Source: Salinimicrobium xinjiangense DSM 19287 (GTDB lineage: Bacteria > Bacteroidota > Bacteroidia > Flavobacteriales > Flavobacteriaceae). From it: a stretch of DNA of 41,947 bases. The notes under the pieces are model-generated. The model worked only from the letters and a program-made list of their open reading frames with translations, was not told the origin of the DNA and did not search any database. The translations under genes were made by a program, and so were the position numbers. Below, piece by piece: positions 25,927 through 41,947 of the stretch; within the stretch, counting starts at the first letter, position 1; every line of letters begins with the position of its first letter. The stretch is taken from NCBI RefSeq assembly GCF_000423585.1, contig NZ_AUIG01000032.1, positions 1 through 41,947 on the forward strand, written 5' to 3'.

Positions 25927-26379
25927 TTATCTGTAAGATCCTATTTTTACTTCTTTCTCTATTATATGCTCCTCCTTTTCTATGAATAAAGAATCATTTC
26001 TTTTTGCCAATAAATTTGAATGAAACTCAAAAGGCTTTATAAGGCAATAAATACCGAGAACATAAAAAAGATTGTCAACATACCTCAATTCGGGAACTTC
26101 TAAAAAGTATATTGAAAACACCACCAAATCTGAAATAGTTAATCCTAAAACAGAAATAAAATAATATGAAGAGATGTTACTTTCCAGATTGGTACTATAG
26201 AACAAAGCCGCAATCCCTAATGTGATAATAACAAATCCATTAATATAAAATAATGTCATTAGCAGTCGATCTTCAATAATTTCAGAAAACCAAAAACTTA
26301 ATGGGAGAAGAATTATAGAATTGATAATATAGAATAAAACTAAAGCCAGAATTTCCCCAATTGATATTGCAGGGTTTTT
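25927..26379 (-). pseudogene. Membrane protein gene lacking its 5' end
   Basis: The first Met (26259) gives 110 residues, but the frame is open 40 codons further upstream and continues hydrophobic: EILALVLFYIINSIILLPLSFWF precedes DRLLMTLFYINGFVII. A stop at 26380-26382 then ends it without any good start. The visible part has four or five membrane spans and a charged tail (KEEHIIEKEVKIG). The upstream end runs into the hsdM relic in another frame. I infer that a deletion joined two gene fragments. Family not recognised. Confidence 0.45.
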
Positions 26380-26813
26380 TTATTCTGTAAGTGCTTAAAA
26401 GTTAAAAAGATTAAATAAAGACAAATTCCACTATGGACAGTATAATAGAAAAATTTCGAGGGTATATATTCCCATTCAAGAAAAATTGGGTTTCGCTTTG
26501 GGTAATTTGCTGCTCGAGGCGTTACCTTTCTCCAATTAGGCTTCGACTTTGGCGACAATGGCTTTTTGTTCCAGTACCAAATTTCCTTAGTGCGTTTACC
26601 TTTTTCAAAAAACAGCAAATTGGTGCTTACCGTAGCTGGAAAAAAGGTGCTTTGAGACAGGCGCACGATAGTATGCAAATTTGCAACTGAGAGTAGCTTT
26701 TCCCGTATCCTGGCTTTTACGCCATCGCCGGTTATGAAACCGTCGGGTAGAACTATGGCGCAACGGCCTAAGGTAGAAATCACCATATCAGTCGGGTTAT
26801 CTGCTAATTTCAC
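26340..26813 (-). pseudogene. hsdM: Relic of a type I restriction-modification methyltransferase (HsdM)
   Basis: About 65 residues are unmistakably HsdM N6-adenine methylase: GRCAIVLPDGFITGDGVKARIREKLL, then NLHTIVRLSQSTFFP and VSTNLLFFEKGKRTKEIWYW. Intact HsdM proteins are roughly 500 residues; here the upstream part with the SAM loop and the NPPF motif, and everything downstream, are missing. After about residue 90 the frame turns into unrelated text. No hsdR or hsdS remains. The fragment cannot be functional and marks a lost R-M system. Confidence 0.82.
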
Positions 26814-26858: not shown

Positions 26859-26962
26859 TACCTGTTAGAGTGTAGGTAAACAAATAAAAATATACCCTGA
26901 ACAAGGCAGCTTAAATACATGTAAGAGGGGATTTCACAAATTCCGTTTATCCCACAACTTTG
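26859..26962 (+). promoter_or_regulatory. Dyad-array promoter A (before 26994)
   Basis: Elements in order: TACC-N8-TGTA (26859-26874), TACC-N8-GGCA (26893-26908), ATAC-N9-GGGA (26915-26931), then CAACTTTG ending at 26962. Dyad offsets are 34 and 22 bases, and the last right half lies 31 bases from TTTG. The spacings equal those of promoter D at 38638, although the half-sites here are the most degenerate of the four. Confidence 0.72.
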
Positions 26963-26993
26963 TATATCAGATAACAACGTAAACTGAAATAAC

Positions 26994-27866
26994 ATGAAAC
27001 CAATTTATCTCCTTTTTAGCTGCATTATTTTAGGCGGCACTCTCGCCTTTAGACCCAAAGATGTTTTCAATGATCTAAACATCACCCATCAAGAGGTAAA
27101 AACCCAGATCTTGAATGGAATTAAACAGGAAACCTACAGATTTCCTGTCAACAAACTGGCAAAAACGCTTTCTCCCGAAGCAAGGGCGGCTGCCGTAACA
27201 GCCCTGGCAGTATTTGCAAGGGAGTATGTCAGTTCAAAAGATTTCCTCTACGATTACATGGGAACCGGCGAAGCCACTTATGAGGATATTTCAGGAGCTG
27301 AGGAGAATCTGGCTGTCCAGTTTGCTTCTGCGGAAGCTTCATCATTTCAAATGCAAATCGATTTTTCGAGGCAGGGCATTGAATATATGAAAAAGGCCTT
27401 CGACAATCCTTATTTGGGAGCAGCCGAAAAAGCTGAAATGAAAAAACAAATAGCCGAAGCTGAAAAGGAGCTGAACGTATTTGAGCAGGAACATAAAGAA
27501 CAACAGCTGGAAATTGAGAAGGAAGCAAAAGAAAACAACAGGAAAAGTTATGCGCAGGCACAACAGGACCTGGAAGATCAAAAAGCACAGCAGGAATTGT
27601 TGGAGAGATTACAGAAAGAAGAGGAAGAAAAAGTTGCAACAGAAATCAGGAGCCAGCTTAAAAACCGGCTTGAAAAGTTCCTGATCGACACAGAAGGCAT
27701 GGATTTTAACGCAAAACTTGTTCCGGGAAGAAACGGAGTGTACAAATTTACCGATCCGCAACTGGAGGCAAAAGACAAGCAGTGGAAACTATATTTCCGC
27801 GCAGGGGAAGCCCCTGTTATGGCAGCCCGATCCTTTGCCAAAGACTGGTTGAAAGACTTGCAATAA
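26994..27866 (+). CDS. Exported coiled-coil protein, unknown function
   Basis: The 290-residue protein has a signal peptide (MKPIYLLFSCIILGGTLAF). A folded N-terminal part follows (residues 25-125), including TLSPEARAAAVTALAVFAREY. A long charged coiled coil covers about residues 125-225 (KKQIAEAEKELNVFEQEHKEQQLEIEKEAKENN). A C-terminal domain ends MAARSFAKDWLKDLQ. I do not recognise the family. It is the first gene behind promoter A, with a cupin gene 117 bases later on the same strand. Confidence 0.7.
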   Translation: MKPIYLLFSCIILGGTLAFRPKDVFNDLNITHQEVKTQILNGIKQETYRFPVNKLAKTLSPEARAAAVTALAVFAREYVSSKDFLYDYMGTGEATYEDISGAEENLAVQFASAEASSFQMQIDFSRQGIEYMKKAFDNPYLGAAEKAEMKKQIAEAEKELNVFEQEHKEQQLEIEKEAKENNRKSYAQAQQDLEDQKAQQELLERLQKEEEEKVATEIRSQLKNRLEKFLIDTEGMDFNAKLVPGRNGVYKFTDPQLEAKDKQWKLYFRAGEAPVMAARSFAKDWLKDLQ

Positions 27867-27983
27867 GGAAAACCAAAACCTCTCCTGCTTCTTTTAAGAA
27901 TAAGATTTAAACCGAATGGGTAGAAACAAATAACATGGGACAGGAAACCTGTAAAAAAAAACAATAATTAAAAACCATTAAAA

Positions 27984-28496
27984 ATGAAACGAGAAGAAAT
28001 TTTAGAAACATTGGCTCCCAGAGTAGAAATTACAACGGCTACGGCTATTAAAACTAATGAAGTTAATGCGAAATTCCTCAATGATGGGGAAGGTAAAAAA
28101 CTTAATGTCTTGGGCGACCAGATGATCATAAAGCTTACGGGAAAAGACACTAACAATCAATTTACACTTGTTCAGGATCAGATTGAGCCCGGTGTTGGCA
28201 TCCCTCTCCATGTGCATGATAATGAAAATGAAATTTTTCGAGTTCTGGAAGGAGAACTGGAAATAGGAGTAGGTGATCAAAAAAGAATATTAAAAGCAGG
28301 AGATCTTGGCTTTGCCCCCAGGGGCATCCCACACTACTGGAGAGCCGTTGGGGACAAAAAAGTCTTAATGGATACCAGTGTTTTTCCGGCCGGTTTAGAA
28401 AACATGTTCTCTGAGCTCGGAAATCTTCCTTCTGGACCACCAGATTTCGCAAAAATTGTAGATATCTGCGGAAAGTACGGAGTAAGGTTCCTTTAA
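27984..28496 (+). CDS. Cupin domain protein
   Basis: The 170-residue protein has one cupin barrel. Motif 1, PLHVHDNENEIFRVLEGELEIGVG, gives two His and one Glu for metal; motif 2, GDLGFAPRGIPHYWRAVG, gives the third His. A 50-residue lead and a short tail (NLPSGPPDFAKIVDICGKYG) flank it. This type is common in Bacteroidota, without known substrate. Another cupin gene (40254) lies in the same proposed regulon. It probably shares the promoter A transcript. Confidence 0.85.
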   Translation: MKREEILETLAPRVEITTATAIKTNEVNAKFLNDGEGKKLNVLGDQMIIKLTGKDTNNQFTLVQDQIEPGVGIPLHVHDNENEIFRVLEGELEIGVGDQKRILKAGDLGFAPRGIPHYWRAVGDKKVLMDTSVFPAGLENMFSELGNLPSGPPDFAKIVDICGKYGVRFL

Positions 28497-28579
28497 CTGA
28501 CAGAAAGCTTAATCTGTACTCCATAATAGTTCCGCCGTTAGTCACTAACGCGCAAAAAGTTATGCAGATTTTGAATTAT

Positions 28580-28625
28580 ATGCCACATCTCAATTTTTGG
28601 AACAGCCGGGATGTGGCATCTTTTA
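28580..28625 (+). terminator. Terminator-like hairpin after the cupin gene
   Basis: ATGCCACATC (28580-28589) pairs perfectly with GATGTGGCAT (28610-28619), followed by CTTTT. The 20-base loop is large and the T run short, so it may be a weak terminator. Confidence 0.6.
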
Positions 28626-28713
28626 ACTGTTTTTGCTATAAGAGGCACTTCATTCTTACCTGTCAAACATTCAGTAATGTTATTAAAACCCAGTTAATAT
28701 AATTTTCTATACC

Positions 28714-29433
28714 ATGGAACATCTATCCTTTTTCAACCATTTAATTATAGTACTGTCTTCAGTATTTGTTATTTATATGCTTTTCAAAGCGGCCGGAAAG
28801 CCAAAAAATTTTCTAATACTAGTCCTGGTGTGGGCGGGTATTATCAGTTTTTTCGGCTTTACCGGTTTCTATAGGGAGGTAAATGTTGCTATACCTCGTT
28901 TTTTGTTTCTTGTGGGTCCTGGAATAGCATTTAGCCTTCTAATGCTTTTAACTAAAAGAGGAAGAAGATTGATAGATTCTGTAGAGCTCACCGACCTTAC
29001 CCTTTTACATACTGTGCGATTTCCTGTAGAAATAGTTCTTTTTCAACTTTATGCCGCGGGCATGGTGCCGCAGATCATGACCTTTAATGGTTATAATTTT
29101 GATGTAATTACAGGACTAACTGCTCCTGTAATTTTTTATTTAGTCTTCAAGGCGGAACTAATAGGAAATAGAGGGCTGCTTGCATGGAATTTCTTAGGAC
29201 TGGCCTTACTTTTAACCATTATGTTCATAGCAGTTGCGTCTTCACAAACTCCTTTTCAGCTATATGGATTTGAACAACCTAATATTGGAGTTACTTATTT
29301 CCCTTTCGTCCTGTTGCCCGGGATAATAGTCCCCGCTGCTCTTTTTGCCCATTTGGTCAGCATAAGAAGACTTGTTATTAATGTACTTAAACATTCGGCC
29401 AATTTTCAGCCTAAATACACTCCCGAAATCTAA
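28714..29433 (+). CDS. Integral membrane protein, unknown function
   Basis: The 239-residue protein has about seven membrane spans (for example IIVLSSVFVIYMLF, FLFLVGPGIAFSLLMLL, LLAWNFLGLALLLTIMFIAV, FPFVLLPGIIVPAALFAHLV) and short loops. A conserved-looking FQLYAAGMVPQIMTFNGYNFDVITG lies between spans 4 and 5. No family is recognised with confidence. The 3' end abuts the remnant of an S41 protease gene, which appears to have lost its own 5' end there. Confidence 0.7.
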   Translation: MEHLSFFNHLIIVLSSVFVIYMLFKAAGKPKNFLILVLVWAGIISFFGFTGFYREVNVAIPRFLFLVGPGIAFSLLMLLTKRGRRLIDSVELTDLTLLHTVRFPVEIVLFQLYAAGMVPQIMTFNGYNFDVITGLTAPVIFYLVFKAELIGNRGLLAWNFLGLALLLTIMFIAVASSQTPFQLYGFEQPNIGVTYFPFVLLPGIIVPAALFAHLVSIRRLVINVLKHSANFQPKYTPEI

Positions 29434-29445
29434 AAAACAGGTTAA

Positions 29446-30592
29446 ATCTCGATTGAACAGCGATTGACTAAACATTATCTAAATGGTCATTACGATAGTC
29501 TCATTTCTGAAGAAGATTTCGCTTTTAGTGTTACTTAAGATCTGAGGGAAAATAACACAGGATCTTCACCTGGGTTTGACTTATTATCCCGTTGAAAATT
29601 CTGAAAATGGTGTTGAAAGTGACGAGAAAGAGAAGGAAGAATATTTGAAGATGGTTTTAGGCTCATCCGGCTTTGGCTTTAGAAAAAAAGAAATCCTTCC
29701 AGGAAATATTGGTTACCTGGAAATTCCTCTTTTCGGACCATTGGACCGAGTAGCGGACACACTCGTAGATGCCATGCACAAGATAGCCGACACAGATGCT
29801 TTAATATTAGATCTTCGGGAATGCAGAGGAAGTATGGATCAAAACACAGTCCCTTTCCTTCTAGGCTATTTCTTCCAGGATCCGGTGCATCTAATGGATT
29901 TTCATATTCGAGAAACAAACTTCATAAGACAATTTTGGAGTGCCGCCTGGGTTCCCGGTAAAAAGTATCTGAACAAGCCGGTTTACGTGCTTACCAGCGG
30001 CCGAACTTTTTCGGGAGGGGAAGCTCTGGCCTTCCTGATGCAAAAGGAGCAACGGGCAACAATCATAGGCAATATTACCCGCGGAGGATCCCACCCATTC
30101 CAACTGATGAGGCTGAACAATAAATTTGGTGTTAACGTTCCCTATTCAACCTCCGTAGATCCCGTTGATGGTAGTTCCTGGGAAGGAGTGGGAGTAAATC
30201 CGGATATATTCGTAGACACTAAATTGGCTTTACACGAAGCTCACCTGCTTGCCCTCCATGATCTCCTGAAAAAAAATTCAGGAGTTGAACGTAAGAGATT
30301 GGCAAGTATTTTCGAAAAACAGCAGGCCGATAAACCTATTTTTAAACATTTAACTTTTAAACTAAAGGCTTTTCCTGATGCCAAAATGGTAATAGTTACC
30401 GGCAGTTTTAATTCCTGGGAGCGGGAGAGTCTTTTTATGGAACGTAAGGGTGATGAATGGATTTTATCAACAGAAGTTTCTCCCGGCAGACATACCTATA
30501 ATTTTATTGTAGATGGCAAATGGATACTGGACCCTGCAAATCCTGAAATTGAGAAAGGAGAGTTTGAGAATTCGGTTGTATGGGTGAAATAA
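29446..30592 (+). pseudogene. Broken S41 peptidase with C-terminal CBM48-like domain
   Basis: From 29446 one frame reads IEQRLTKHYLNGHYDSLIS, the usual helical start of S41 tail-specific proteases, then meets TAA at 29536-29538 where a Gln (SVT-Q-DLRE) is expected. After GAA at 29548-29550 one extra A in an A run shifts the frame; the new frame continues ITQDLHLGLTYYP and then openly to 30592. That part keeps ALILDLRECRGSM and the nucleophile block SGRTFSGGEALAF. Residues 260-338 form a CBM48/AMPK-type glycogen-binding domain (VTGSFNSWERESLFM, YNFIVDGKWILDPANPE). The gene also lacks a signal peptide, so it is most likely inactive; a shorter product from TTG 29576 cannot be excluded. Confidence 0.75.
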
Positions 30593-30749
30593 AAGATATG
30601 TGCTATTAATCTTTCTTTGGTACAGAAAAACAGAAAAATCATGTGCATTCTCCCGCTCTGTTAATTGGTCTACCCTGAAGATAAAAGAAAGGTTTGAATA
30701 TTTTATGTTTCCGAATTCTCTGTAATTCCCACTGCTCACCGATTTGAAA

Positions 30750-30819
30750 TACCCTATAGACGGTAGACAAAATCCCTCTTAAAGGGTATTTCATATACTT
30801 TATTTCGGTCACACCTTTG
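30750..30819 (+). promoter_or_regulatory. Dyad-array promoter B (before 30863)
   Basis: TACC-N8-GGTA (30750-30765, perfect), ATCC-N9-GGTA (30772-30788), then CACCTTTG ending at 30819. The dyad offset is 22 bases and the last GGTA lies 31 bases before TTTG, as in promoters C and D. A third, distal dyad is not recognisable here. Confidence 0.8.
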
Positions 30820-30862
30820 TATCATAAGAATTACTCTTTTCTAAGAACTAAAGATAGAACAC

Positions 30863-31150
30863 ATGGAAACGATAGACAGGTTATTTGGAAATTACGGTAG
30901 TGAGCACCTGGCAAGGGTATTCAAAAGCTATTGGAGCCTATTGCTGCTTATGAAACAGGTGACGTTTTCTTTATTCCTGATCGGATTACCCATTCAGGAT
31001 CAACTGCCTGTCGAAAACACAGAAATTATTAAAGAAGTCACAGTTAGGGACCGGGAAGAAAATCTGAACAATCCCAATTTTTTCCGGCTCATAGTAAGCC
31101 TGGCCCAGGTTAGTCCCAATGAACAGTTCGAAAAAACCTCTGTAAACTAA
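30863..31150 (+). CDS. Small protein of unknown function
   Basis: The 95-residue protein has a charged N terminus (METIDRLFGNYGSEHLARVF), one possible membrane span (SLLLLMKQVTFSLFLIGLPI, about residues 25-45) and a polar tail. It resembles nothing I know. It is the first gene behind promoter B and is followed after 13 bases by the SpoIIAA-like gene. Good promoter and operon context support a real gene. Confidence 0.6.
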   Translation: METIDRLFGNYGSEHLARVFKSYWSLLLLMKQVTFSLFLIGLPIQDQLPVENTEIIKEVTVRDREENLNNPNFFRLIVSLAQVSPNEQFEKTSVN

Positions 31151-31163
31151 AACCTCTACTCAA

Positions 31164-31616
31164 TTGCCTACTTTAAACCCACATCATCTCCAGGAAGTGA
31201 TCCTGGCTGAAAACGCAAATTACATGTTATCATCTAATGCTGCGGGAACAATTCTTTATCAGGAACACTTTAAACCACACCTGCTAAAGCGAACCGAACT
31301 TAAAGAGATATTACATGCAATGTCCAACGGAAATTTTAAAGCTTACCTCATAAAGATCAACAATGGAAATATTTTACCTCCCGAAGACATGTCCTGGGTC
31401 GAGCGATTTAATCTCATGCGACTCTATAAAGCCGGAATATCAAAAGTGGCTTATGTTTCGCCACAAAACATTTTTAACAGCCTGGAAATGGAAAAGGAAC
31501 TGGCCCCTGGAAAGATCTTCCACATCAGGATTTTCCGAAAAACTCCAGATGCAGTAAAATGGCTGGAAAGTTATCTCCAGGAAGGGGATACTTCTGAATA
31601 TTCAAAAGGCCTTTAG
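31164..31616 (+). CDS. SpoIIAA/STAS-like protein
   Basis: The 150-residue protein, started at TTG 31164, has the pattern of short SpoIIAA-like proteins of Bacteroidota: a beta-rich first half (LSSNAAGTILYQEHFKPHL), then WVERFNLMRLYKAGISKVAYVSPQ, and a C-terminal FRKTPDAVKWLESYL that matches their usual 'F-x-x-x-x-A-x-x-WL' ending. Such domains often act as regulatory or lipid-binding partners. It lies directly upstream of the large kinase gene, so a signalling role is attractive but unproven. Confidence 0.62.
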   Translation: MPTLNPHHLQEVILAENANYMLSSNAAGTILYQEHFKPHLLKRTELKEILHAMSNGNFKAYLIKINNGNILPPEDMSWVERFNLMRLYKAGISKVAYVSPQNIFNSLEMEKELAPGKIFHIRIFRKTPDAVKWLESYLQEGDTSEYSKGL

Positions 31617-31761
31617 TTTATGCGACCTTCAGATGTATGCTAAGCAGTGAGACAAATTTGATTTATTTCATAAAATTTTGGTAAGTATAATTTCATTTAT
31701 GAATTTAAATTACATTTATTCTCCCCTATTACAGAAACGTCGAAAGATTAACAGCTAACCT

Positions 31762-34700
31762 ATGTCTGGTCTTACAATCGTCTCCAAACCAGCCAACAGG
31801 CTTTTAGGTCGAAACAGAGAATTAAAAAAAATCTCTGAAATTCCTTGGGACTCACAAAAGACTTCTCTACTCCTCGTGGAGGGGCCGGCGGGGATTGGAA
31901 AGACCAGCCTTATCAAACATGTGCTGGAAGAAAATCTGCAAAAAAACCACTTTAAGCTCTATGGTAAGTTTCAGAATAACCGGGGAAACACCCCTTATTC
32001 GGCATTTCGCCAGGCATTTACTTTATGGAGTCAACAGATCCTCCTGTTAACCGATAAAGAATTTGATGAACTTCGGGAAAATGCTACCTCTGCCCTGCAA
32101 ACTCATATTAGGGTAATCACCTCTGTATTTCCCGATCTGGAAGTGTTTTTTAACAGGAAACATCTTGCTCAGTACCCCAACAAGGTAGATTCACATCAAA
32201 TTAAAGCCAGGTTCTACTACTTCCTGAAGAAATTCTTTAAAAGTATTACCGCACTCAGATACGAAGTAGTCCTTTTTCTTGACGACCTGCAGTGGGCAGA
32301 TAAAGCTTCCCTGGACCTACTTGAAGAATTGACCAGGAACCATATTCGAGGATTGAGACTTGTAGCTGCCTACCGTCCGCAGGAGGATCCTACTTCTGCC
32401 CTTTCCCAACAATTGGGAAATATATTTACTGACAGCAAGGTGAAACTAATACGGCTCGAACCTTTTCCCCGTTCTGTTGTTGCCCGTATGATCCCACCGG
32501 AATGGAATTTCTCTAAAGAGAATCAAACTTCTTTCTCGAACTACCTTTGGATGGAAACAGAAGGAAACCCTTTTAAAATACAAGAGATCATCAAGGCGGT
32601 CGAAAGCCGGGACCTATTGAGCTTAGGGCCCGGAAATCCTCTTTTTTGGGAACGTTTGCCCAGGCTTGGAGGAGAAAAGGATTCTGTAGTTTTTATTAGA
32701 GAGCAAATAAGAGCTTTACCATTTCACCAGCAGAAACTCATTGCAGCTGCTTCCTGTCTGGGTTTCTATTTTACTCCGGAAGCGCTCCAAAATATTTATG
32801 ACCCGTTTGACGAAGAATCCCGTAAATCTTTGGGTCTACTTAGCACCCGGGGGCTTCTCATAAAGAAGGGGGCAACTTACGTATTTGCTCATGACCACGT
32901 CTTCTCTGCTGCCAATTCCTTACTTTCCAATTCAGAAAAATGCGACCTGCACTTGAAAGCTGCAGTCTATATGCTCAAAGGCTGTGGAGATTACCAGAAT
33001 GCAGATTTATTTAAAGCCGTGAATCATCTTAACCGGTCCAAAGAACTGGCCGGTTCAGGAAAGATCTATTCCCAGGAAATTGTTCTTCTTAACATACAGG
33101 CTGCCCGCCTTGCGATCAACAACTCGGCTTTTGAAACTGCATTAGGCTATATTCAAAATGCCGATAAATTTTTCAGGGAGAGTGAAAAACCAATTAGGAT
33201 CAAGGATCCGGCCCTACAAAGGATCTTTGAAGGAAAGAAACTCGGGATTGAAAGTATTGGGTATCTCATCTTTCATGGATATGCTGAAACCAATTTCCTC
33301 CTGCAAAAATTTGAGGTTGCCCTGTCTTATGCTCAAAAAGTACTTGACCTCAATGGCACCCGACATCAAAGGGTGAAAGCTATGTTGATCAAGATTAGGA
33401 TCTGTTCTGCATTGATGTATCAAAAGAACACTTCTCACCTCCTGGAACACGGGCTTAGCAGCTTTGAGCAGATACTGGGAGAATTCGGCATTCACTTTCC
33501 ATTCCCGGTTGAAAAAATGGAGAAAGAAAACATCAAGAACTGTCGCCTGCTACAGGAAAAAGCTGCTGCTTACACCGAAAAAACAGATTTTACCCGGCTA
33601 CTCAATCCAGATAAGGAATACCAGGACCTGCTAAAGCTCATAACCACTTCCCTCACCTTTCTTTACTACCTCGATGTGAGGAAACATCTTTATCTAACGA
33701 TTAAAGGTCTGCTTCTAATCGTTGAAAAAGGACATACCCCGATGAGTCCGGTGCTCTTTTCGGCTAGTTTTGTCATCTCTTCCCTGAGCCGGGAGAACAG
33801 GGATCTTGCTTATTTCCTGGGAAGACTTTCTCTTAAGATGATCGAAAACGATCCTTTTAAAAGATATTCCCATATCATTTACTATGTAGGTACTCTTAAT
33901 TTTTTTGCCTGGAATAATCACTACAGGATCTGCAGTAAAAAACTTAAAGAATCTGTTGTAAAAGCCTATGAAGCCGGAGACCCTCATTATGCTGCCTTTT
34001 GCTCTACCAACATTCGTCTGCTGGACTGTTATAGAGGCAGGAACCTTCTGAAACATATAGAGGCCACAAAGAGGTTGGAAAAGAACTACCACATTTTTTT
34101 TATCAGCAGCAGCGATGAGGATCTTACTAATTATCTCTTCGGAACTAAACGGGGTTTGGAGAAGGGAAAATTCCGGTTCTCAAAAGATCTTTTAAGGCAG
34201 TCGGAACAAAATCTGAATAGCCGGTACCATTTAAATCTTGCTTTACAAAAGCTCAATTATATTGCCGGTTATAATGAGGCTGCATTAAAAGCAGGAAAGG
34301 TTTGTGAGAGTCTGGGGCACATCTATAAAGGATTCCAGATCGAGCTGGAACATTTTTTCTTTTATTCATTAAGCCTGTTACAGGAAGCATATTCAAACCC
34401 CGGATCTTTTCCGGAAGTTCTATCCAGTGTTCAGCCTAAACTTGAGGAATTCCAACGGCTCACAGCCTTTGGTTCGGGTAATTATCTCCACAAGGTTTAT
34501 TTGCTGCAGGCAGAAATTGCAAAGTGCAGAGGGGATTTTGAAGAAGCCACCCTGCTGTATGACCGGGCCATTGAGCAGGCCCAAAAGATGAAATTCACTC
34601 ATCACGCCGCTATTGCTGCAGAACTGGCTTTTAGGTATTATCAAAGCAAAAACAGAACCGGACTGGCAAAACATTATTTTGAAATATGCCTAAAGAACTA

Positions 34701-35958
34701 CAAACGCTGGGGAGCAATGGCGAAAGTAGATCAACTCCAGTCAATGTATGGATATCTTATTCCAAAGAAGAAGCGATCACAGGAGAAAATTGAGCTCAGC
34801 GGGCACTATGAAACCATTAAAAAGATACTCCGTCGTAATATTCCTTCAGGGAATATAATTTTAGAAGAGCTGGGGCAATATGTTTTAAACCTGTTGATTA
34901 AAGATCTAAAAGCAAAGAAAGGCGGGATTTTAATACTTAAAGACAATAACTGGCAGGTTCTTGCCTCCAAATCTCTGAAGGTACAGGTTCATGATGCATT
35001 AAAGGATCTTAGGGAGAAACTTCCCGTCAGTGTACTGAATTACAGCATCAAAAAAGGCGAAAAATTGATTCTTCAGGAATTACTGCGGGAATCTCTTTTC
35101 GCCGAAGATGAATATCTCAGAGAACAGCAACCCGGGAATATTACCATAATCCCTGTAAAACAAAGTGCAGAAACCATAGCAATATTTTATCTTGAAGACT
35201 GCAGGATTGATTCGGAAGCTGAAAAAGACCTCTTTCCTGTCAAGTTAGAACTCGCCTGCACCACTTTTGCAAATGCCGTCTATCATGAAAATACTAACCT
35301 CCTGAACAAACAGCTTAAACTGCAGGAAAGGAATCGAATAGAAGCGGTAATTGAATCTCAGGAAAAAGAAAGGCAACGTATCGCAGAGGAATTGCACGAT
35401 AGTTTAGGTCAAATCCTCGCACTCACCAGGATCAATCTTTCCCGGCTTCAGCCAACAGATACGGCTCCTGACAACGGACTGCTGCTAAAAAATATTTCAG
35501 ATCTTATTGATGAGAGCTGTGAAGAAGTGAGAAGTATTTCACATAATCTCATGCCTCCCGATCTGGATAACCGCAGTATTGCCGATATTCTACAAAAACT
35601 CATTGCAAAAAACAGGGTAGTCAATGGAATTGAATATACATTTTATGCAGAGAGCCTGGAAAGTGAACCTTCCGCAGCATGTAAGTTTACACTATATCGT
35701 GTACTTCAGGAGATCATTCAAAACATTATTAAACACGCTTCTGCGACCAAAGTCAACGTTAGTCTCAGTGAGACAGGGGACTTGCTGCATCTCCTGGTAG
35801 AGGATAATGGTAAAGGCTTTGACACAAGTGTAACAGGATTCGGCCTTGGATTAAAAAATATTTATTCCCGTATTAAAATTCTTAACGGATATCTGGATAT
35901 TGATTCTTCAATTAATAGTGGGACAGTTTTCAACTTAACTATTCCCCTAAAAATTTAG
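31762..35958 (+). CDS. Large AAA/STAND-type ATPase-TPR-GAF sensor histidine kinase
   Basis: The 1398-residue cytoplasmic protein begins with an AAA/STAND-type ATPase: Walker A GPAGIGKTS (41-49) and Walker B VVLFLDDLQWAD (about 170-181). About 650 residues of helical, TPR-like repeats follow (for example FETALGYIQNADKFF; DFEEATLLYDRAIEQAQ). A GAF-like segment lies around 1030-1190. Next is the HisKA_3 motif QEKERQRIAEELHDSLGQILAL (His near 1210), and then the ATPase domain with VLQEIIQNIIKHA and VTGFGLGLKNIYSRIKILNG. It resembles cyanobacterial and myxobacterial multi-sensor kinases, but the N-terminal Ser/Thr kinase domain is absent. The cognate NarL-type regulator gene starts 2 bases after its stop. 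Confidence 0.92.
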   Translation: MSGLTIVSKPANRLLGRNRELKKISEIPWDSQKTSLLLVEGPAGIGKTSLIKHVLEENLQKNHFKLYGKFQNNRGNTPYSAFRQAFTLWSQQILLLTDKEFDELRENATSALQTHIRVITSVFPDLEVFFNRKHLAQYPNKVDSHQIKARFYYFLKKFFKSITALRYEVVLFLDDLQWADKASLDLLEELTRNHIRGLRLVAAYRPQEDPTSALSQQLGNIFTDSKVKLIRLEPFPRSVVARMIPPEWNFSKENQTSFSNYLWMETEGNPFKIQEIIKAVESRDLLSLGPGNPLFWERLPRLGGEKDSVVFIREQIRALPFHQQKLIAAASCLGFYFTPEALQNIYDPFDEESRKSLGLLSTRGLLIKKGATYVFAHDHVFSAANSLLSNSEKCDLHLKAAVYMLKGCGDYQNADLFKAVNHLNRSKELAGSGKIYSQEIVLLNIQAARLAINNSAFETALGYIQNADKFFRESEKPIRIKDPALQRIFEGKKLGIESIGYLIFHGYAETNFLLQKFEVALSYAQKVLDLNGTRHQRVKAMLIKIRICSALMYQKNTSHLLEHGLSSFEQILGEFGIHFPFPVEKMEKENIKNCRLLQEKAAAYTEKTDFTRLLNPDKEYQDLLKLITTSLTFLYYLDVRKHLYLTIKGLLLIVEKGHTPMSPVLFSASFVISSLSRENRDLAYFLGRLSLKMIENDPFKRYSHIIYYVGTLNFFAWNNHYRICSKKLKESVVKAYEAGDPHYAAFCSTNIRLLDCYRGRNLLKHIEATKRLEKNYHIFFISSSDEDLTNYLFGTKRGLEKGKFRFSKDLLRQSEQNLNSRYHLNLALQKLNYIAGYNEAALKAGKVCESLGHIYKGFQIELEHFFFYSLSLLQEAYSNPGSFPEVLSSVQPKLEEFQRLTAFGSGNYLHKVYLLQAEIAKCRGDFEEATLLYDRAIEQAQKMKFTHHAAIAAELAFRYYQSKNRTGLAKHYFEICLKNYKRWGAMAKVDQLQSMYGYLIPKKKRSQEKIELSGHYETIKKILRRNIPSGNIILEELGQYVLNLLIKDLKAKKGGILILKDNNWQVLASKSLKVQVHDALKDLREKLPVSVLNYSIKKGEKLILQELLRESLFAEDEYLREQQPGNITIIPVKQSAETIAIFYLEDCRIDSEAEKDLFPVKLELACTTFANAVYHENTNLLNKQLKLQERNRIEAVIESQEKERQRIAEELHDSLGQILALTRINLSRLQPTDTAPDNGLLLKNISDLIDESCEEVRSISHNLMPPDLDNRSIADILQKLIAKNRVVNGIEYTFYAESLESEPSAACKFTLYRVLQEIIQNIIKHASATKVNVSLSETGDLLHLLVEDNGKGFDTSVTGFGLGLKNIYSRIKILNGYLDIDSSINSGTVFNLTIPLKI

Positions 35959-35960
35959 GT

Positions 35961-36617
35961 ATGGAAAAAATAAAAATAATACTGGCAGACGATCACCAAA
36001 TGTTCCTGGATGGATTATCTTCTTTATTGTCACAACTAAAAGAAGTGCAGGTATTGGCAGCGGTGAAAAGCGGAAGCGAAGTTCTGGAGAAATTAAAAGA
36101 ACTCTCTCCAGATCTTGTCATTGTAGATCTTAATATGCCTGTGCTCAATGGCATCGAAACTACAAAAGCCATAAAGTCGAAATATCCGGAAATCAAAATT
36201 CTGGGGCTAACTATGGAAAATGACCTGGATTCTGTCACTGCAATGCTGGAAGCGGGAGCCTCGGGATATATTTTAAAGAATACCGGGAAAGCAGAACTTG
36301 AAATGGCGATTATGCAGGTAATGAAAGGAGATCCTTACCTGAGCCAGTCTATAAGCACCCAACTGGCACAAAACCTTCTTCAGAATTTTCAGCAAAGAAA
36401 AGAGCAGGAGAATGAACTGGACGTTCTTACTGAAAGAGAGCTTGAAATTCTCAAATTGATCGCTCATGAAAACTCAAATACCGACATAGCGGATGTTCTT
36501 TTTATAAGTCCCAAAACAGTGGAAACACATCGTAAAAATCTTATGCGTAAAATTGGGGTGAAAAATTCTCTGGGTGTCTATAAATTTGCTTTAAAGCATA
36601 AACTTGTGGAGGAATAA
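35961..36617 (+). CDS. NarL/FixJ-family response regulator
   Basis: The 218-residue transcription factor has a receiver domain (IILADDHQMFLDGL; phospho-acceptor D56 in VIVDLNMPVLNG; SGYILKNTGKAEL with Lys) and a C-terminal LuxR-type helix-turn-helix, LTERELEILKLIAHENSNTDIADVLFISPKTVETHRKNLMRKIG (about 150-195). The HisKA_3-NarL pairing is standard. It is the most likely protein to bind the TACC-N8-GGTA dyads before 26994, 30863, 36881 and 38818, because NarL-type 7-2-7 sites have this length and these ends. That link is inference. Confidence 0.94.
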   Translation: MEKIKIILADDHQMFLDGLSSLLSQLKEVQVLAAVKSGSEVLEKLKELSPDLVIVDLNMPVLNGIETTKAIKSKYPEIKILGLTMENDLDSVTAMLEAGASGYILKNTGKAELEMAIMQVMKGDPYLSQSISTQLAQNLLQNFQQRKEQENELDVLTERELEILKLIAHENSNTDIADVLFISPKTVETHRKNLMRKIGVKNSLGVYKFALKHKLVEE

Positions 36618-36692
36618 ACTGAATTCGTGGGTTTTCTGCATTTCCTGAAACTCTTTTTCACAAGATTTCCTTTTCCTGATTAATAGTGCCGG

Positions 36693-36795
36693 TACCTTAT
36701 GTATGGTACATCTAAATCCTGAAAATACCAGATTTGGTGTATATAAAATCCTATAGATAAGGTATTTCAGGATACTCATTTCTTACCCAATTTTG
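36693..36795 (+). promoter_or_regulatory. Dyad-array promoter C (before 36881)
   Basis: TACC-N8-GGTA (36693-36708, perfect), TACC-N8-TGTA (36726-36741), ATCC-N9-GGTA (36748-36764), then CAATTTTG ending at 36795. Offsets are 33 and 22 bases, and the last GGTA lies 31 bases before TTTG. The array begins about 75 bases after the response regulator gene. Confidence 0.82.
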
Positions 36796-36880
36796 TCCCG
36801 TAGCATTTCTGAAATATCAAATGAAATAATTTGGATACAGGAGCTACTTCATCAATCAATCAAATTTAATTTTTTAAAAA

Positions 36881-37765
36881 ATGAAAACACTAGTAATTGG
36901 AGGTACAGGTACCGTTGGAAAAGAAGTTGTAATGGAACTTCTAAAAGAAGGAAAAGCACTTAGAGTATTAACTACTTCAAAAGAAAAGGCAAAATCTCAA
37001 CCTGCAGGAGTAGAGGCCGTTGTGGGTAATACCGGAGACCCTGAGAGTCTTCAAAAAGCATTTTTAGACATTGACAGGCTTTTTATGGTCAATGCCCACA
37101 CCCAAACCGAAGTCGAACAGGCTATGAATGCCGTTGCCGCAGCAAAAAATGCCGGGGTAAAAAAAATCGTTTACCAGAGTATTCATCGTGCACATGAATT
37201 TCAAACCATTCCACATGTAAAATCGAAGGTTTTGCTCGAAAATGCGATCAAAGATTCAGGTGTTAATTACACTTTTGTCTGTCCCAACAATTTTTACCAG
37301 AATGATTTCATGTTTCATGAAGCTATAACGAAATATGGTGTTTATCCACAACCAATAGGGAACATTGGCCTAAGTCGTAACGATGTAAGGGACATCGCAG
37401 AAGTAGCTGTCAAAGCTTTATTTACTTCAGATCTTGATGGCCTTTCTATTCCTATCGTAGGACCCGATGCGTTGACAGGGAACGATATTGCGAATATACT
37501 TACCGGAGTGCTGGATTACAGAGTTCAATATGCCGGTAATGATCTTGTAAGCTGGGCTGCACAGACCAAACAGTTTGTACCGGAATGGATGGTAGAGGAC
37601 TGGAGGATCATGTATGGCGAATTTCAGAAAAGAGGCTTGATCGCTACAGATGCAGAAGTAGCGCTGCTGACTGATGTATTGGGCAGGCCTCCCAGAAATT
37701 ATGTGGATTTCCTCAAAGAAAATAAATCACTATTCCAGGGAGTACCTACTGTGGCTGAAAGCTGA
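36881..37765 (+). CDS. NmrA-like NAD(P)-binding oxidoreductase family protein
   Basis: The 294-residue atypical short-chain dehydrogenase has the nucleotide loop LVIGGTGTVGKEVVMELL at the N terminus, NTGDPESLQKAF, KNAGVKKIVYQSIHRAHEF and PHVKSKVLLENAIKDSGVNYTFVCPNNFYQN, all typical of the NmrA/HSCARG/QOR2 group. Some members are enzymes acting on quinones, others only sense the NADPH/NADP ratio. The YxxxK catalytic motif is not evident, which favours the sensor-like end. It is the first gene behind promoter C and could be transcribed with the lipoprotein gene 110 bases later. Confidence 0.86.
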   Translation: MKTLVIGGTGTVGKEVVMELLKEGKALRVLTTSKEKAKSQPAGVEAVVGNTGDPESLQKAFLDIDRLFMVNAHTQTEVEQAMNAVAAAKNAGVKKIVYQSIHRAHEFQTIPHVKSKVLLENAIKDSGVNYTFVCPNNFYQNDFMFHEAITKYGVYPQPIGNIGLSRNDVRDIAEVAVKALFTSDLDGLSIPIVGPDALTGNDIANILTGVLDYRVQYAGNDLVSWAAQTKQFVPEWMVEDWRIMYGEFQKRGLIATDAEVALLTDVLGRPPRNYVDFLKENKSLFQGVPTVAES

Positions 37766-37875
37766 ATCTTTTTATCTCCGCGTAAAAAGATACCGGTAAT
37801 TTCCTGAACATGGGAGAACTTGCCCATGTAGAGGTAAACTAATTTCTATTTAATTCTAATAATTCTTTTATTAAT

Positions 37876-38631
37876 ATGAAAAAACAGAAAAAATTTTTAA
37901 TTAGAAGCATCTTCGCCAGCTCAATACTTTTTGCTTTAACAAGCTGCCATCACGAAGGCATCTTCTTCAGAGCAAATAAAGATTCCGAACCTCAATTAAA
38001 CAGTCCGGATGTGCAGTCGGCAATTGAATTTGACGCAACAGGCCAACCTGAACGCATAAGCCTTATCTTTTCTGAATCGACACTGGCAGACCTCCCACAA
38101 AACGTGCATCACCTGCAAATACCTGTGAATGATCCTTCGGGGAAATTCCCTTTTAACCATCTCAGTTTAAAATGGAATCCAACTAAAGACGATGTTGAGG
38201 GAATATTTACCACACCCCATTTTGAAACCGGATTTCACCTCATTTCTGCCGAAAAAAGAAGTAGTATAAAAGTTGCTGATCCGTTGGCTGAGCTTCTGCC
38301 TAACCGCGAATTACTCCCCCAGGATTTTATTCCCTCTAAAGGTTCTTATTCAGGTACTGGCAAACGATGGCTCAATCCCACTGCATCAGAATTACATGAG
38401 CCAAATGAAACATATACTCTTTTGGTTGATTCTTATGCAGGTGAGATCATTTCCTTTGTTCCTTCCTTTACACTAAAATACCTTGAGGAGGCAGAGAACC
38501 AAATCTTTACTATTCCTTTTCCAAAAGGAGCACAAAAGGAGGGTGCATTTTATCCAACCCAGTACAGCCTTTCCTTTGATGCTGCAGAGAAGAAATACAT
38601 AATAAGTCTGTTGGAATTTCAGAGAAGTTAA
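37876..38631 (+). CDS. TTHB210-like (DUF5602-like) lipoprotein with altered His motif
   Basis: The 251-residue precursor has a lipoprotein signal ending FALTSC. The mature part is clearly paralogous to the product of 38818 (FNHLSLKWNP, EGIFTTPHF, DPLAEL-LP, FYPTQYSLSFD). I recognise the type as TTHB210-like, with moderate confidence. In the sister protein the central segment reads WNPHGHEPEGVYNVPHFDMHFYMI; here it is WNPTKDDVEGIFTTPHFETGFHLI. The HxH pair and one later His are thus lost, while the PHF His is kept. A hairpin (ACATGGG/CCCATGT near 37810) lies upstream; no dyad array is seen. Confidence 0.72.
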   Translation: MKKQKKFLIRSIFASSILFALTSCHHEGIFFRANKDSEPQLNSPDVQSAIEFDATGQPERISLIFSESTLADLPQNVHHLQIPVNDPSGKFPFNHLSLKWNPTKDDVEGIFTTPHFETGFHLISAEKRSSIKVADPLAELLPNRELLPQDFIPSKGSYSGTGKRWLNPTASELHEPNETYTLLVDSYAGEIISFVPSFTLKYLEEAENQIFTIPFPKGAQKEGAFYPTQYSLSFDAAEKKYIISLLEFQRS

Positions 38632-38637
38632 TATCAG

Positions 38638-38741
38638 TACCAGATTCACGGTAGAAAAGAATAAAAATAAATACCTGAACACTGGTAATTAAAAACCTGT
38701 CAATCAGGTATTTAAAACTTTAAATACTCGGCACAACTTTG
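38638..38741 (+). promoter_or_regulatory. Dyad-array promoter D (before 38818)
   Basis: TACC-N8-GGTA (38638-38653, perfect), TACC-N8-GGTA (38672-38687, perfect), AACC-N9-GGTA (38694-38710), then CAACTTTG ending at 38741. Offsets are 34 and 22 bases, and the last GGTA lies 31 bases before TTTG. This is the best-preserved copy of the array. Confidence 0.84.
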
Positions 38742-38817: not shown

Positions 38818-39576
38818 ATGAAAACGCTTAATTCAACTTTTCTGAAACTCTACTTTCTAAGCTTTATTTGTTTAACGGCAGTTAGCTGTCAGGACGATAA
38901 TCCACTGCCACCAATGACTTTTCATGGGCCGGTAACCCAATTGGGTGATGGGGCCATTAGATCCTTTGTAAAGATAGATGAGGACGGGGCTCCGGAGGAA
39001 ATAGGACTCACCTTTCCGGAATCCGCTTTAAATAACCTTCCTCATACAATGACTTTTTTTGAGATACAGCTTCCACAACAAGCTTATAAAACTCCTTTTG
39101 ATCATATTGGATTTGACTGGAATCCTCATGGACATGAGCCTGAAGGAGTTTACAATGTTCCACATTTTGATATGCATTTTTACATGATCCCTTCGGCTGA
39201 ACGCATTCAGATTGGAGTGGAAGATCCATTATCTGAAAAGCTTCCTCTCCCGGGGTATATGCCTGCCAGTTATATTCCCTTACCTGGATCTGTTCCTCAA
39301 ATGGGAAAACATTGGGTAGATCCTTCTACTCCGGAACTCAATGGTGGGGAATTCACGCAGGTAATGATGATGGGGTCCTACAACGAAGAGGTAACATTCT
39401 ATGAACCTATGATTACTCTTGAATATTTAAAAGAAAAGAAAAGCGATAATATTCTCCTTGAATTACCACAGCAGTATCATCAGGAAGGGAAATATTATCC
39501 TACGGCTTATAAGATCTCCTTTGATCAAAGGAAAAAGGAATATACCGTTAGTTTAACAGGTTTGACCCTAAGATAA
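38818..39576 (+). CDS. TTHB210-like (DUF5602-like) lipoprotein
   Basis: The 252-residue precursor has a lipoprotein signal (MKTLNSTFLKLYFLSFICLTAVSC) and one domain of the TTHB210-like kind. Its core is a His-rich stretch WNPHGHEPEGVYNVPHFDMHFYMI (about residues 101-124), followed by DPLSEKLP, MPASYIP, MGKHWVDPSTPEL and FYEPMITLEYL. The clustered His residues suggest metal binding. The Thermus protein that gave the family its name was found, as far as I recall, as a target of an alternative sigma factor; its function is not known. The gene leads the promoter D unit with the cytochrome c, cupin and VOC genes. Confidence 0.78.
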   Translation: MKTLNSTFLKLYFLSFICLTAVSCQDDNPLPPMTFHGPVTQLGDGAIRSFVKIDEDGAPEEIGLTFPESALNNLPHTMTFFEIQLPQQAYKTPFDHIGFDWNPHGHEPEGVYNVPHFDMHFYMIPSAERIQIGVEDPLSEKLPLPGYMPASYIPLPGSVPQMGKHWVDPSTPELNGGEFTQVMMMGSYNEEVTFYEPMITLEYLKEKKSDNILLELPQQYHQEGKYYPTAYKISFDQRKKEYTVSLTGLTLR

Positions 39577-41848: not shown

Positions 41849-41947
41849 ATGAAATTTAAATCATTTATCGGAGTCGATGTTAGCAAATTATCCCTGGATA
41901 TTTGTTCTATCACAGAAGACGGCGAAATTAAAAATTTTAAAATTGAC
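41849..41947 (+). CDS. IS110-family transposase, N-terminal fragment (cut by window edge)
   Basis: ATG 41849 opens a frame of 33 codons, MKFKSFIGVDVSKLSLDICS..., running off the right edge. The IGVDVSKLSLDI motif is the start of the DEDD RuvC-like domain, with the first catalytic Asp. The remaining acidic residues and the C-terminal serine domain are outside the window. Confidence 0.85.
   Translation, partial: MKFKSFIGVDVSKLSLDICSITEDGEIKNFKID

Follow-up and report, generated by a model that had tools for sequence, protein, structure and literature searches.

What controls the promoters in and around a sensor kinase and response regulator gene pair of Salinimicrobium xinjiangense DSM 19287, four of which share an elaborate array of inverted repeats (dyads) at fixed spacing? 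The pair lies on contig NZ_AUIG01000032.1 of assembly GCF_000423585.1, where positions 1 to 41,947, the whole stretch analysed here, constitute what we call the window. The answer proposed, to which we give a probability of roughly 85%, is that the arrays are operators of the response regulator encoded at 35961, which would switch on its own operon and further genes. Binding, phosphorylation, activation rather than repression, and the operon structure are matters that we infer from the DNA sequence.

An initial annotation of the window had described an order of elements exact to the base before the genes at 30863, 36881 and 38818, with 31 bases from the last GGTA to the TTTG of a CAnnTTTG box, and a poorer fourth copy before 26994. 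Recast as a composite pattern (TACC-N8-NGTA, N6, AWCC-N9-GGTA, N27, TTTG) and searched both by exact matching and by mismatch-tolerant scans, this order is exact at 30750-30819, 36726-36795 and 38672-38741, with the same distance of 31 bases, while the array at 26893-26962 departs from it by three mismatches. The further upstream dyad described for three of the four window arrays is likewise present, starting at 26859 (one mismatch), 36693 and 38638, in each case 33-34 bases 5' of dyad 1. The arrays and the genes of the pair are as follows, with dyad centres on the start-site scale explained below and proteins measured in amino acids (aa).

26859-26874, plus strand: distal (third) dyad of the 26994 promoter, TACC-N8-TGTA, one mismatch to TACC-N8-GGTA, 34 bases 5' of dyad 1; centre about -100.5
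26893-26962, plus strand: array of the 26994 promoter; dyad 1 26893-26908, dyad 2 26915-26931, TTTC 26932-26935, CAACTTTG 26955-26962
30750-30819, plus strand: two-dyad array ahead of the 30863 operon; dyad 1 30750-30765, dyad 2 30772-30788, TTTC 30789-30792, CACCTTTG 30812-30819
30863-31150, plus strand: 95-aa protein, first gene of the putative kinase-regulator operon
31164-31616, plus strand: 150-aa protein, 67% identical over 132 residues to its counterpart at a diverged locus (see below)
31762-35958, plus strand: 1398-aa sensor kinase, with an AAA_16 ATPase, a long middle part, HisKA_3 and HATPase_c
35961-36617, plus strand: 218-aa response regulator, receiver plus GerE (LuxR/NarL-type) domain, the proposed array binder
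36693-36708, plus strand: distal (third) dyad of the 36881 promoter, centred near -99.5; matches TACC-N8-GGTA exactly
36726-36795, plus strand: array of the 36881 promoter; dyad 1 36726-36741, dyad 2 36748-36764, TTTC 36765-36768, CAATTTTG 36788-36795
38638-38653, plus strand: distal (third) dyad of the 38818 promoter, centred near -100.5; matches TACC-N8-GGTA exactly
38672-38741, plus strand: array of the 38818 promoter; dyad 1 38672-38687, dyad 2 38694-38710, TTTA 38711-38714, CAACTTTG 38734-38741

The genome-wide search that the initial annotation had proposed as a check found three exact matches, all in the window, against 6.9e-05 expected from base composition for both strands of the 3.76-Mb genome. 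With up to three mismatches allowed, the whole genome gave eight matches on its two strands, against 1.8 expected and none for the reversed pattern; four are the window arrays, and the remaining four (three on contig C3, one on C6) are taken for chance, gene context aside. Judged by its mismatch count alone, the 26893 copy would not stand out. A model trained on eight arrays (R2), leaving out the 26893 array and its orthologue in a second genome of the genus (G400), nevertheless recovers both, the former at an E-value (E) of 6.3e-7 in 499,750 bases and the latter at E = 0.00036, the top background match of the search being at E = 0.041. Exact single TACC-N8-GGTA dyads occur four times in the window, every one inside an array, and nine times in 400 kilobases (kb) of background; because they are so common, it is the composite and not the single dyad that carries the evidence. 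Across 397 genomes of the family, at no more than one mismatch, the composite matched three times in the source genome and once in one other (G154), and the reversed control matched twice. When a shortened form of the array pattern was searched in twelve genomes of the genus with as many as three mismatches allowed, four genomes lacking the kinase gave one match each, as did the source genome away from the arrays; controls totalled eight matches, and these stray matches are at chance level. The 44-base-pair (bp) double dyad is itself near-palindromic (36723-36766 and 38669-38712 on the minus strand), so that the minus strand of double dyads also matches at two or three mismatches.

The taxonomic distribution of the arrays follows that of the kinase. 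Among the twelve genus genomes the kinase is present in two, the source genome and G400, and the arrays are confined to the same two. A model built from ten arrays, with 150 first-look candidates scored per genome, found four arrays in the source genome and seven in G400, all at E below 1e-9, the best value in the ten others being 0.0015. Ten of these eleven matches are expected by construction, being the training set; the eleventh is independent, and scores E = 1.0e-10 with this model and 8.4e-11 with R2. This array is some 64 kb away from the first kinase gene of G400, before a 484-aa lipoprotein-like frame (L142 8369-9823) with no source-genome match at 1e-10. Without the redundancy between the two genomes, the eleven arrays reduce to seven.

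G400 carries the system twice. At its orthologous locus the kinase is 94% and the regulator 98% identical to those of the window, and four arrays have zero to three mismatches. At a diverged locus (stretch L095) the corresponding identities are 52-53% and 77.5%, and two arrays have one mismatch each, one 5' of the small-protein, kinase and regulator genes (L095 9511) and the other directly 3' of the regulator gene. The gene after the regulator is NmrA-like in the source genome and, at the diverged locus, a 164-aa frame (L095 15797-16291) with a sub-cut-off match to an outer-membrane barrel; the array is retained while the downstream genes change. Neither this barrel-like frame nor the 484-aa one has an equivalent behind an array of the source genome. 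When 14 window proteins were compared with the open frames of six G400 stretches, L095 had counterparts at E 1e-4 only for the 95-aa and 150-aa proteins, the kinase and the regulator, and the regulator alone of these four has a recognised DNA-binding domain. A second LuxR-type protein is encoded near the diverged locus (250 aa, L098 5124-5876; 37.5% over 48 residues). With arrays and kinase in the same two of twelve genomes, and two arrays at the diverged locus, there is good support for the regulon that the initial annotation proposed around the pair. Its description of that regulon as local holds for the source genome, at the reach of the model, but not for G400, where some 64 kb separate the array before the lipoprotein-like frame from the closest gene for the kinase.

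The regulator is a NarL/FixJ (LuxR-type) response regulator, with Response_reg at E = 8.3e-26 (residues 6-117) and GerE at E = 3.4e-20 (154-208), both above cut-off. Orthology to NarL itself is ruled out by its score of 137.6 bits against the NarL equivalog model NF007935, for which the cut-off is 250. Residues S183-I198, recognition helix included, are identical in all three copies of the regulator, and two other regulators of its type in the source genome (at E 1e-15) are 33% and 32% identical and have different recognition helices. The kinase belongs among HisKA_3 sensor kinases (HisKA_3 E = 2.7e-11, HATPase_c E = 2.4e-13, both above cut-off); its long middle part has no Pfam match at 0.001. 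The 95-aa protein has no Pfam match, and its first 38 residues are 45% identical to an 88-aa protein of the diverged locus (L095 9627-9893), the remainder having diverged. For the 150-aa protein there is no Pfam match at 0.1, its counterpart at the diverged locus is SpoIIAA-like at E = 0.048, under cut-off, and its predicted structure is of low confidence (mean predicted local distance difference test score, pLDDT, 41.4). PADLOC returned a single weak match, mad8, at E = 0.00067.

A gapless alignment of ten arrays has 82 columns, 24 of them invariant. Half-sites stand at array positions 2-4 (ACC), 13-15 (GGT), 24-26 (WCC) and 36-38 (GGT), alternating in direction every 11-12 bp. Positions relative to transcription starts are estimated on a scale borrowed from Flavobacterium psychrophilum, whose -7 box occupies -12 to -5 according to an excerpt of PMC9723704. 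This puts the centre of dyad 2 at -44, that of dyad 1 at -66.5 and that of the third dyad, in arrays that have one, at -99.5 or -100.5, and would place the starts themselves near 26967, 30824, 36800 and 38746. All eleven arrays have a CAnnTTTG -7 box, one base off the TAnnTTTG form of the main sigma factor, for which the same register is assumed; the degenerate box without its usual T that the initial annotation pointed to is thus a constant of the arrays, and it fits the activator reading. Among 195 upstream regions of the source genome, defined by crude gene calls, TAnnTTTG on the sense strand is the most enriched form (52 against 31 antisense), and CAnnTTTG occurs 21 times sense and 19 times antisense. 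At -35 to -32 the arrays have TTTC (nine of eleven) or TTTA (two of eleven). The excerpted text of PMC7366714 gives TTTG near -33 for promoters of B. fragilis, an element not found there in F. johnsoniae, and no -33 signal is visible at 39 TAnnTTTG sites in bulk upstream regions of the source genome. Dyad 2 overlaps this putative degenerate -33 element, ending in a GGTATTT whose TTT begins it. The putative -33 element and the -7 box are each one base off, as they would be in an activator-dependent promoter, and the array promoters are expected to be weak without the regulator because the -7 box is CAnnTTTG, not TAnnTTTG.

The half-sites do not follow the NarL consensus. The initial annotation had equated TACC-N8-GGTA with the 7-2-7 heptamer arrangement, yet none of 38 half-sites fits TACYYMT or TACYNMT, and T stands at heptamer position 7 in only eight. 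Conservation extends outward instead, as A-rich AWATACC (A at -3 in 31 and at -1 in 27 of the 38), and not inward. Individual genuine NarL sites also deviate from the TACYYMT consensus. The mismatch counts against the two motifs being the same, and not against a NarL-type protein as the binder.

A third dyad stands 33-34 bp 5' of dyad 1 in five of the seven non-redundant arrays, all five before target genes (four of these dyads are exact and the fifth is one mismatch away). At one mismatch, no third dyad lies within 120 bp of the two arrays before kinase-regulator genes. This pattern suggests, rather than shows, that less regulator is needed for a response of the pair's own operon than for one of the targets. 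We offer only as a tentative, somewhat doubtful extension an operator grammar in which half-sites on an 11-bp lattice would offset the weakness of both core elements (-33 and -7) and the response would be ordered by how many dyads a promoter has, with a low threshold for the own operon (two dyads) and a higher one for targets (three).

In the mechanism that we propose, the AAA-ATPase/HisKA_3 kinase (31762-35958) would phosphorylate the regulator, dimers of which would bind the head-to-head half-sites AWATACC and GGTATTT, 11-12 bp apart. Two stacked dimers would sit at about -44 and -66.5, joined at target promoters by a third at about -100, and the proximal dimer, lying over the degenerate -33 element (TTTC or TTTA, -35 to -32), would aid the main RNA polymerase. 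The own operon carries the two-dyad form, and positive autoregulation is therefore proposed.

Several observations weigh against this reading. Dyad 2 has a nine-base spacer and a weak left half, and the 26893 array is poor in dyad 2; for that left half an eight-base register fits better in the 26893 and 30750 arrays and equally well in the 36726 array, the nine-base register being better in the other four. Identity is 92% in motif columns against 39% in spacer columns, a contrast that is partly circular because the motif columns were chosen from the same alignment. Between orthologous loci, changes number 3 of 124 in the motif, 14 of 172 in spacers and 10 of 232 in the upstream flank, so that constraint on the motif columns is hardly visible at this distance. 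The system was also found in only two of the genomes searched. Kinase searches of the overlapping family, class and order sets scored at most two candidates per genome: no close copy was found elsewhere in 397 family genomes or in 336 order genomes (the source alone at 1e-90), and 395 class genomes gave, at 1e-70, the source genome and one 26% match. Among 60 relatives the kinase was found in the source genome and G400, with one further 25% match at E = 1.1e-63, and a scan of viral contigs found no relative. Eighty loci from a contig scan with the whole kinase were set aside, matching the common histidine-kinase core only (34-42%).

The same regulator might bind the arrays and repress, or switch by state, its proximal dimer covering the -33 element; the GGTATTT end of dyad 2 does supply the TTT of that element. 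Repressed promoters, however, require good core elements, and in all eleven arrays each of the two deviates by one base, the dyads extend to about -100, and NarL and DevR activate from comparable positions (excerpts of PMC7419079 and PMC3029386). We regard repression as unlikely. Still less probable is that a regulator encoded elsewhere binds the arrays and the kinase-regulator pair is merely one target. Departures of the geometry from the NarL consensus and the one distant G400 array would suit such a regulator, but not the confinement of arrays to the two kinase-bearing genus genomes, nor their presence at both G400 loci. To promoters of an alternative sigma factor of the extracytoplasmic function (ECF) type, suggested by the atypical -7 box and by GGTATTT near -35, we attach almost no weight. 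Invariant bases are found as far out as about -77, and in five of the seven non-redundant arrays the dyads extend to about -108, exceeding a sigma footprint; the register of TTTG (-12 to -5; excerpt of PMC9723704) suits the main sigma factor; and no sigma gene is common to the loci, although a 162-aa frame near the diverged locus (L095 18496) reads to us as sigma-like. Chance or recent copying of one promoter can practically be dismissed, common as single dyads are, the first being ruled out by the genome counts for the composite (three exact matches against 6.9e-05), though not for single dyads, and the second by flanks only 30-33% identical among the seven non-redundant arrays.

Regulation of the arrays by the 35961 protein would leave the following genes of the window as likely targets or their neighbours.

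26994-27866, plus strand: 290-aa protein, first gene behind array 1; its G400 orthologue, 94% identical, is likewise behind an array; no Pfam or NCBIfam match at 0.001
36881-37765, plus strand: NmrA-like NAD(P)-binding protein (NmrA E = 3.7e-30), first gene behind array 3
37876-38631, plus strand: 251-aa TTHB210-like protein, sub-cut-off (26.5 bits against 26.6)
38818-39576, plus strand: 252-aa TTHB210-like protein (E = 2.9e-16), first gene behind array 4

Ahead of the 37876 gene no array was found at up to four mismatches, and this gene is probably transcribed in one unit with the NmrA-like gene. The two TTHB210-like genes stand in tandem with an array between them, and in the orthologous G400 stretch a single such frame was found (252 aa), 90% and 37% identical to the window's two. 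Likely target genes encode NmrA-like, TTHB210-like, cytochrome c and cupin proteins; an envelope or redox response is our guess from these, and no paper on TTHB210/TTHB211 was found. An S41-peptidase-like frame of 338 aa (29576-30592) corresponds to residues 90-427 of a 427-aa G400 frame and looks shortened at its start in the source genome. The start of a frame at 41850-41947, cut by the window end, looks like that of an IS110-type transposase, and the 157-aa minus-strand frame at 26340-26813, just 5' of the first array, presumably resembles part of a DNA methylase subunit.

NarL-type operators in Bacteroidota seem little described; titles and abstract openings of the open-access literature yielded no on-point paper. 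Here the operator, the register of the promoter, the probable autoregulation and the regulon all emerge from the sequence itself. CAnnTTTG beneath a dyad array is a possible marker for further activator-dependent promoters, and the third-dyad rule makes a falsifiable prediction about the order of response.

Among known systems, NarX/NarL of E. coli shares the HisKA_3-type kinase, the NarL-type regulator and the outer TAC..GTA of a 16-bp dyad. At E. coli ogt, as given in an excerpt of PMC7419079, NarL has sites at -44.5 and -77.5 and is also active from an engineered site at -67.5, so that array dyads near -44 and -67 occupy positions functional for NarL. The arrays differ from NarL operators at the inner heptamer positions and in the outward A-rich extension and the nine-base spacer of dyad 2, and the kinase is, unlike NarX, large and fronted by an AAA ATPase. 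Plasmid-encoded relatives annotated as 'AAA family ATPase' or 'trifunctional serine/threonine-protein kinase/ATP-binding protein/sensor histidine kinase' align over 79-83% of the kinase at 21.9-25.6% identity in the 20 listed of 219 records, the alignments stopping at residue 1146 or 1199, short of most of the kinase core. Mycobacterial DevR (DosR), likewise of the NarL subfamily, binds close-packed boxes cooperatively, the proximal one over the -35 element, and regulates itself (excerpt of PMC3029386), features that the array system parallels in its regulator, its close-packed sites with the proximal one over the -33 element, and its proposed autoregulation. DevR differs in working with another sigma factor and promoter type, and a literature search on DevR spacing found nothing relevant. 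The DevR box sequence is unlike the array half-sites. Our working picture is of a system that would resemble NarL at ogt and DevR in the way it works, of an ordinary kind in an unusually clear form.

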